DNA from: Sulfurimonas sp.
GTDB lineage: Bacteria; Campylobacterota; Campylobacteria; Campylobacterales; Sulfurimonadaceae
Direction: 5' to 3'
Length of the DNA: 64,000 nt
Assembly: GCA_030949945.1 (NCBI GenBank)
Contig: JAUZRZ010000007.1
Span: 1-64,000 of the forward strand
A program made the translations under genes and the position numbers. Shown piece after piece: positions 5,059 through 47,064 of the stretch; positions within the stretch are counted from its first letter, which is position 1, and each line of letters starts with the position of its first letter. Under the pieces are notes generated by a model. The model was not told where the DNA came from. It did no database searches and saw only the letters and a program-made list of their open reading frames with translations.

Positions 5059-6030
5059 ATGGAATTTTTTAGATATACAAGAACTTTCAACTTTATGGGT
5101 AAGTCTAAGATAGCGATGATTTTATCAGTAGTAATAGTGCTGGCTTCATATGCAATTTTACTTACAAAAGGTCTAAACTACGGTGTAGATTTTGCAGGTG
5201 GAACAGTTGTTCAAGTAAAGTACACATCCGAAGCACCGATTAACGAGATGCGCAAAGCACTTAAAGATAATGAACTTTTTGCAAGTGCGAGTATTAGTGA
5301 ATTTGGTACTCCTGAGGAAGTCGTTATCCGTATGAAAACAAGTACAGGTAGTGTGACTAGGGACATCGGAGACATAACAAGAGAGGCACTCAAGGGAACT
5401 GGTGATTTTGTCATTCGTCGTGTAGATATTGTTGGGCCAACAGTAGGTGCAGAGCTCAAAGAAAAAGGTATAATGTCTTTACTTCTAGCAATGCTTGGTA
5501 TCTTGATGTATGTAGCATTTAGATTTGAGTGGCGTTTTGCTGTGGCTTCCATCGTTGCACTTGTGCATGATGTGAGTATAGCATTGGGGATGGTAGCACT
5601 TTTTTCTATAGATGTAAACTTAGATGTTCTTGCAGGACTATTAACAATTTTAGGGTATTCACTTAATGATACTATTATTGTTTTTGATAGAATTCGTGAG
5701 GGTGTAGTTAAGGGAAGAAATGTTGAACTTCGTGAGACTATTAATGAGTCTGTCACAAGAACATTAGCTCGTACAACTCTTACTTCACTCACAACTTTCT
5801 TTGTTGTGTTTACACTCTTTATGTTTGGTGGAGAGATAATCCATCCATTTGCATTTACACTTTTAGTAGGTGTAGTAGTTGGAACATACTCTTCAGTATT
5901 TGTAGCGAGTCCTATTTTACTATGGTTTGGTTTTGATGTAAAAAACTACCATGTAAAACTAGCAGCAAAAGCTAAAAGAGAAGCAGAAAAAAAGAAGATG
6001 CGAGAACAGTTTGATGGTGGGATAGTATAA
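5059..6030 (+). CDS. secF: Protein translocase subunit SecF
   Basis: GVDFAGGTVVQVKY; GYSLNDTIIVFDRIRE. Confidence 0.96.
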   Translation: MEFFRYTRTFNFMGKSKIAMILSVVIVLASYAILLTKGLNYGVDFAGGTVVQVKYTSEAPINEMRKALKDNELFASASISEFGTPEEVVIRMKTSTGSVTRDIGDITREALKGTGDFVIRRVDIVGPTVGAELKEKGIMSLLLAMLGILMYVAFRFEWRFAVASIVALVHDVSIALGMVALFSIDVNLDVLAGLLTILGYSLNDTIIVFDRIREGVVKGRNVELRETINESVTRTLARTTLTSLTTFFVVFTLFMFGGEIIHPFAFTLLVGVVVGTYSSVFVASPILLWFGFDVKNYHVKLAAKAKREAEKKKMREQFDGGIV

Positions 6031-6036
6031 TAACTA

Positions 6037-6136
6037 ATGTTACAGATTTTCTTAAAAAAGCCCCTTTTTTATAGCTTTAGGGGTTGTAGGGACAAATTTT
6101 GTCCCTGCGACTATGAGGGGCTTTGCTCCTTATAGT
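6037..6136 (+). repeat. Dispersed triple-hairpin intergenic element, copy A
   Basis: AAAGCCCCTTTTTTATAGCTTTAGGGGTTGTAGGGACAAATTTTGTCCCTGCGACTATGAGGGGCTTTGCTCCTTATAG; homologous to 28867..28964 (reverse) and 45970..46069. Confidence 0.85.
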
Positions 6137-6170
6137 CCGTGTCATTAGTAATAATTTAAAGGAGATAGCA

Positions 6171-45861: not shown

Positions 45862-45969
45862 ATTCAATTTCCTTATTTTAATATTTCGGAAGTATATTTG
45901 AAATAGGTTAATAGAAATCTTATTTTGCGATGAACTAGATTAGTATAATCTTATATTAAGTTTATAAGT

Positions 45970-46081: not shown

Positions 46082-47064
46082 TTATAATAGACTTCTAGGT
46101 GCAATGTCTAACTCTTTTAAGGAGGTAAAGAGCTTTTTCTCATACATCTCAACTGCTACACGCCCTATCATTGCGGCATTATCTGAACAGTATTTAAGCT
46201 CACTCAAAATCAACTCTGCATTATGTGGCTTGAGAAGTTTTCTATCTGAGAACGCAGGTAAAGATTCGCTGAGGCTCCTCCAACTATTGCAAAGGTTTTA
46301 GGAGGAACAGTTTTAAAGTACTTCTTTAATTTCATAACTAAATGTTTTGTGGCAATATGCTCAAAAGATGCAGCTATATCTTTGTACTTTGACTTATCCC
46401 CATCTGCTTCTAGCACTGCTAAACGCACAGCATTTTTAAGCCCAGAGTATGAAAATGCAATGAGAGGTGACTGATGCAGTGGCAGTGTAAAGTTATGTTT
46501 GAGTCTATCTCCACCAGAGGCTAGTTCTTGAATGAGTGGTCCACCAGGATACCCAAGCCCCATCATCTTAGCGACCTTATCAAAACTCTCTCCAAAACTA
46601 TCATCCATGCTCTTTGCAACTGTCTCTATCTCTGTAAGGCTTTTTACTTCCATCACTTGAGTGTGTCCACCTGAAACAAGTAAGCATGTGAGAGGAAACT
46701 GTGTCTCTTTTTCTATAAAAAGAGAGTAGATATGACCTATAAGATGATTTACTCCGATAAGAGGAATATCTAGTGCAACTGCAATAGCCTTAGCCATAGT
46801 TACACCCTCAACGAGTGTTACAGCAAGACCAGGTGTTGCTGTAACTGCTACAGCTTTTAAGTCTTTAAAGTAGGGTTTACACTGTTCTAGTATCTTTGGA
46901 AGTGCCTCTGCATGAAGGCGAGCTGCTAGTTCAGGAACAACACCTCCATATATAGAATGCTCAATCTCTTGAGAAATCTTCTTATGAAAAAGCAGTTTTT
47001 TTGTTTTTATCTCTGTAATAGATATTGCACTATCGTCACATGAACTCTCTATACTTAGTATCAT
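46082..47064 (-). CDS. tsaD: tRNA N6-threonylcarbamoyladenosine synthase subunit, frameshift ~46240
   Basis: [41 protein letters not shown]-term [17 protein letters not shown] in another frame. Confidence 0.95.

Follow-up and report, generated by a model that had tools for sequence, protein, structure and literature searches.

A probable family of miniature transposons with a covarying hairpin cassette in Sulfurimonas and other Campylobacterales

MITEs are usually short-lived and confined to few species. The closest described intergenic repeats are the ERIC, Correia (CREE) and RUP elements, which resemble the element reported here in a length of about 100–150 bp, an intergenic location, tens of copies and terminal repeats, as well as in foldable transcripts, the lack of coding capacity and a copy number that varies among species (PMC10969869). 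The present element differs from them in its sequence and ends, in a 7-bp target duplication, and in a covarying cassette whose linker is invariant and which recurs across at least nine families of one order and is kept in copies without terminal inverted repeats (TIRs). The GTAG/CGTC-tagged REPs, which are 20–40 bp long, carry an unpaired tag and are reported in the campylobacterotal Sulfurovum sp. NBC37-1, are likewise short palindromic intergenic repeats; compared by description, the present element differs from them in its long terminal repeats, its 7-bp duplication and the lack of a RAYT association (PMC3733652). With regard to insertion sequences (IS), the IS701 family is defined by a 4-bp target duplication, and the YREK motif is incomplete in most of its members; the ISPepr1 subgroup of IS4 comprises elements of 1.5–1.6 kb that have CT ends and the YREK motif and duplicate 7–8 bp of AT-rich targets (PMC2266710). 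In our literature search, which covered few subscription papers, no Sulfurimonas MITE was found to have been described previously.

The window analysed is a stretch of 64,000 nucleotides from a Sulfurimonas sp. contig, in which an initial annotation had recognized three copies of a dispersed intergenic element. All three are present at the places indicated, with E values of 2.1e-15, 3.9e-16 and 1.2e-17 under a covariance model built on 57 sequences, home-genome copies included, and copies 1 and 3 fold more stably than their dinucleotide shuffles (z = -8.1 and z = -4.7, respectively). The loci had been placed correctly, but the ends had been set too far inward and cut off the TIRs: when 40 copies were aligned with their flanks, the full element was found to be about 115 bp long, starting with CTGATGTTACGGACTTTTCTTAAAAAAG and finishing with CTCCTTATAGTCCGTAACATCAG, with CTGATGTTACGGACT repeated in inverted form at the opposite end, and full copies are bounded by the inverted repeats CTGATGTTACGGAC...GTCCGTAACATCAG. 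The features of the three copies in the window are as follows.

6034..6148, + strand: copy 1, complete at 115 bp and located between secF and a conserved small gene, which we take, by reading, to be DUF6394-like
6028..6033, + strand: left target duplication of copy 1, TAATAA, one base short of the expected seven
6034..6046, + strand: left TIR of copy 1, CTAATGTTACAGA (family consensus CTGATGTTACGGA)
6054..6070, + strand: first family hairpin of copy 1 from the alignment, A-tract/T-tract stem with a variable loop (here GCCCC)
6072..6093, + strand: conserved core of copy 1, TAGCTTTAGGGG(G)TTGTAGGGAC
6086..6108, + strand: second hairpin of copy 1, GTAGGGAC / GTCCCTGC, near-invariant in sequence, with a conserved T.G pair
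6109..6137, + strand: third hairpin of copy 1, GACTATGAGGGGC-TTT-GCTCCTTATAGTC, the arms of which covary between copies and species
6136..6148, + strand: right TIR of copy 1, TCCGTGTCATTAG, complementary to the left one at 10 of 13 positions
6149..6154, + strand: right target duplication of copy 1, TAATAA
28862..28955, - strand: copy 2, hairpin cassette intact, TIRs decayed
45962..45967, + strand: left target duplication of copy 3, TTATAA
45968..46081, + strand: copy 3, 114 bp long, with the left end GTGATGTTACAGAC retained and a decayed right end
46082..46087, + strand: right target duplication of copy 3, TTATAA

The expectation of many copies genome-wide was borne out in the home genome assembly (2.33 Mb in 90 contigs, 83% complete), where a DNA search returned 40 copies with 84–100% identity and the covariance model 42. 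According to rough ORF-based gene calls, none of the 40 copies lies inside an ORF and the flanking genes occur in all four arrangements (12 +-, 11 --, 9 -+ and 7 ++), in agreement with the initial description of the element as intergenic and not consistently located at gene 3' ends.

The dominant order of the cassette is an A/T hairpin, the TAGCTTTAGGGGGTTG linker, the invariant GTAGGGAC hairpin and a covarying hairpin. The second and third of the hairpins proposed initially are confirmed throughout the family; the first one, CCC(C)T paired with AGGGG, is a local alternative, since the pairing of the GCCCC loop with AGGGG is possible in 24 of the 36 parsed home copies and the loops of other species are not C-rich, and the first hairpin that the family preserves is the A-tract/T-tract one immediately 5' of TAGCTTTA. 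In the 57-sequence alignment, standard pairs occupy 92.8% of the positions in the three hairpins, versus 82% in shuffles, and double-sided changes are seen in 174 cells, versus 49; 11 of the 13 pairs of the last hairpin vary on both sides, and the middle hairpin shows little variation. Many of these sequences were found through an exact 23-base core, so that the conservation of the core is partly by construction, the arms being unselected. Strand-specific folding was considered as proof of an RNA role and discarded, since most of the asymmetry reappears in composition-matched shuffles; that one strand folds more strongly is largely accounted for by its G+T-rich composition. No Rfam family matches the cassette at gathering score, the hit to NsiR9 at 13.8 bits being a chance one; the element is absent from Rfam.

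With the ends fixed at CTGA/TCAG, the comparison of flanks over all offsets gives one sharp peak, at seven bases. Once wrongly bounded copies had been dropped, perfect 7-bp target duplications were counted in 16 of 63 copies, with a mean of 0.73 and a maximum of 5 in 2000 permutations, and duplications with at least six of seven matches in 29 of 63, versus 4.4 in permutations; in the home genome alone, 8 of 30 copies are perfectly duplicated, versus 0.47 expected. The flanking target consensus is AT-rich, approximately TTAATAA, and copies 1 and 3 retain six of the seven bases. The search for empty sites in relatives, suggested at the outset, was positive at the secF site: the interval from secF to the next gene is 141 bp in the home genome versus 16–40 bp in most congeners inspected, and in one of them (G003) the two flank matches overlap by seven bases, which is the pattern expected of a single unduplicated target. 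At the same intergenic site, another congener (G009, L302) holds a different hairpin-rich insert. Taken on their sequences, these repeats are very probably a MITE family, that is, non-autonomous DDE transposons, moved by a transposase of the IS4/IS701 superfamily.

When solitary terminal repeats were sought in congeners, some ends were found to run into antisense C-termini of transposases, relatives of which form an IS of about 1.2 kb in G108 and G105, with an intact gene also in G003. The IS of G108 is 1201–1244 bp long, has the TIR CTGATGTTACGATAATC and ends closely similar to those of the MITE, and shows a perfect 7-bp duplication in five of the seven copies with two clear ends; the intact IS of G105 shows no visible duplication (two of seven bases). 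Remnants occur in G016, G018 and G093, and two deletion derivatives link the IS with the MITE: L239 in G018, where a 20-base left end identical to that of the MITE is combined with an IS-type right end, and a 364-bp element in G093, which is an IS that has lost internal sequence and is flanked by the duplication TTAATAA. The home assembly, 83% complete, yielded no matching transposase gene, its IS4-type hits lacking these ends and belonging to other elements, and no intact IS with ends equal to the CTGACCTTACGCAC form was found in the genomes searched, which yielded relatives and remnants only. The transposase passes the NCBIfam IS701_2 model (NF049921), scoring 252 and 345 bits where the cut-off is 250, in common with the IS701 family; the classic members of that family, however, make 4-bp duplications and the related IS 7-bp ones. 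With the ISPepr1 subgroup of IS4 it shares CT ends, AT-rich targets, 7-bp duplications and a complete YREK motif, Y-(2)-R-(3)-E-(6)-K, read by eye as IYKRRWKIEEYHKSLK in the G105 protein, but at about 1.2 kb it falls outside the tabulated 1500–1600 bp. The label IS4/IS701 superfamily is used because the IS fits ISPepr1 in these features and not in size, and differs from IS701 in duplication length.

In the mechanism proposed, an IS4/IS701-superfamily transposase, made by a ~1.2-kb IS with closely similar ends, would recognize terminal repeats of the form CTGAnnTTACG(C/G)AC; the element would be moved as double-stranded DNA and inserted into AT-rich 7-bp targets (about TTAATAA), each of which would then be duplicated, and any interior could travel between such ends. 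The ends, duplications, empty sites, spread, matching IS and covariation are seen in the sequences themselves. We infer that this transposase family mobilised the copies described here and, less certainly, that the cassette was retained after insertion because it has a function, which would most probably be that of a folded piece of transcript acting on the processing or stability of flanking mRNAs. The mobile forms found comprise hairpin-only elements of 39 bp, forms of ~60–70 bp, ~115 bp and ~143 bp (the latter with an extra left hairpin), IS-deletion forms and still longer forms whose hairpin loops hold nested inserts; this modular interior fits a system in which transposition depends on the ends only. 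The 39-bp hairpin-only element at L164:5149-5187 (CTGATATTACGCACTTTTTATAAAAGTGTGTAAAGTCAG), with six of seven duplicated bases, is possibly the smallest mobile form of the family. Second-order palindromic inserts of ~40–60 bp were observed within the hairpin loops of the element, the same insert appearing in different hairpins, both in the home genome (L036, L039, L044, L058 and L071) and in congeners (L138, L144, L146, L160, L168, L183 and L187).

Model-based searches, in which changes in the core were allowed, detected the cassette in 68 of 101 genomes of the genus, with 1–42 copies each. Of 200 genomes sampled across the order, 38 carried it, and these represent nine families and 16 of 70 genera. 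Copies that have these ends and perfect 7-bp duplications also occur outside the home family (L375-L377, L394); the copies read in one family (f4) carry the cassette without these ends. These f4 loci are L387-L391, and at L387 and L388 a second, partial cassette lies directly upstream, as if in tandem. Spread through a plasmid, phage or viral contig was looked for and none was found. On the sequence evidence, one hairpin cassette recurs in at least nine families, inside transposable ends and as old end-less copies.

Between the genes for DUF3972 and DUF89, nine species share a cassette in the same place and orientation, the site being empty in the other eleven inspected; the ends of these copies are mostly lost, and core and hairpins are retained, with some paired changes. 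In G032, a one-contig genome, the copy at this site is the sole one. Among 19 copies taken from few-copy genomes, the 22-base core is unaltered in 15 and carries no more than one change in 18, and in most of them the right terminal repeat does not exceed the random level. Both patterns of conservation argue for a constraint on the cassette independent of mobility. Further TIR-less cassettes were observed at L373 (G115), L374 (G088), and L361 and L371 (G077, G034), their sites, named from translations, being the rpsN–rpsH interval and the regions upstream of rpsL and of metE. A purifying constraint on the cassette apart from mobility is plausible, and is placed no higher since copies were found through the cassette itself, gene conversion may act in multi-copy genomes and orientation in the home genome is random.

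The association with a RAYT-like TnpA transposase (Y1, IS200/IS605-type) that had been suggested initially, which would make the element a REP-like repeat, did not hold and is very improbable as an explanation. The GTAG found where the second hairpin begins its stem fits it superficially, but in this element the GTAG is paired, and the one RAYT-like gene of the home genome is flanked by an unrelated repeat (GGGTCAGGTGATGAAAATCC); REPs, moreover, are not known to make 7-bp duplications. No Y1 match was found in two copy-rich congeners, G021 (99% complete, 19 copies) and G035 (24 copies), and it is this, together with the other ends of the home RAYT, that decides for a MITE over a REP/RAYT repeat. 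The RAYT-like gene itself (L047:1380-2260, home contig C64) is frameshifted and lies between its own repeats, GGGTCAGGTGATGAAAATCC and GGATATTCATCACCTGACCC. That the copies are intrinsic transcription terminators similar by chance is less credible still, in spite of stems that are intergenic and GC-richer, given the terminal repeats, target duplications, empty sites, positions between divergent genes and the absence of a T-run after the last hairpin; the initial view that they are not simple terminators thus stands.

The weightiest rival, less probable than the MITE reading yet a serious one, takes the hairpin cassette itself as the primary unit: it would be a structured RNA, or a DNA site that folds, maintained by purifying selection in Campylobacterales, and the IS ends would simply have picked it up and spread it. 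The strong covariation points in this direction, as do the old orthologous TIR-less copies of the DUF3972-DUF89 site, the core of the few-copy genomes next to a random right terminal repeat, and the occurrence in nine families with end-less copies in f4; the spread across the order and the TIR-less copies exceed what mobility alone explains for a MITE. Against it, copies were found by core or model, so that lost cores are under-counted, the random orientation to genes in the home genome is ill-suited to one cis-regulatory role, most congeners examined have no element at any given site, the one-strand fold strength is largely compositional, and template-switch repair can also keep hairpin arms alike. 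The narrower proposal that the cassette is an uncatalogued structured RNA of Campylobacterales, seeded by an IS4/IS701-type transposase and kept under purifying selection without the ends, is tentative and somewhat less likely again.

Under the MITE reading, the family appears to be distinct from known MITEs in its taxonomic breadth and in the conserved, covarying cassette of its TIR-less copies. It accounts for a large group of intergenic repeats that are left unannotated in Sulfurimonas and its relatives. If selection on the cassette is real, the MITE would serve to deliver a functional module that folds. The occurrence of the cassette with and without transposon ends offers a natural experiment for asking whether mobile repeats turn into useful modules of RNA or DNA.
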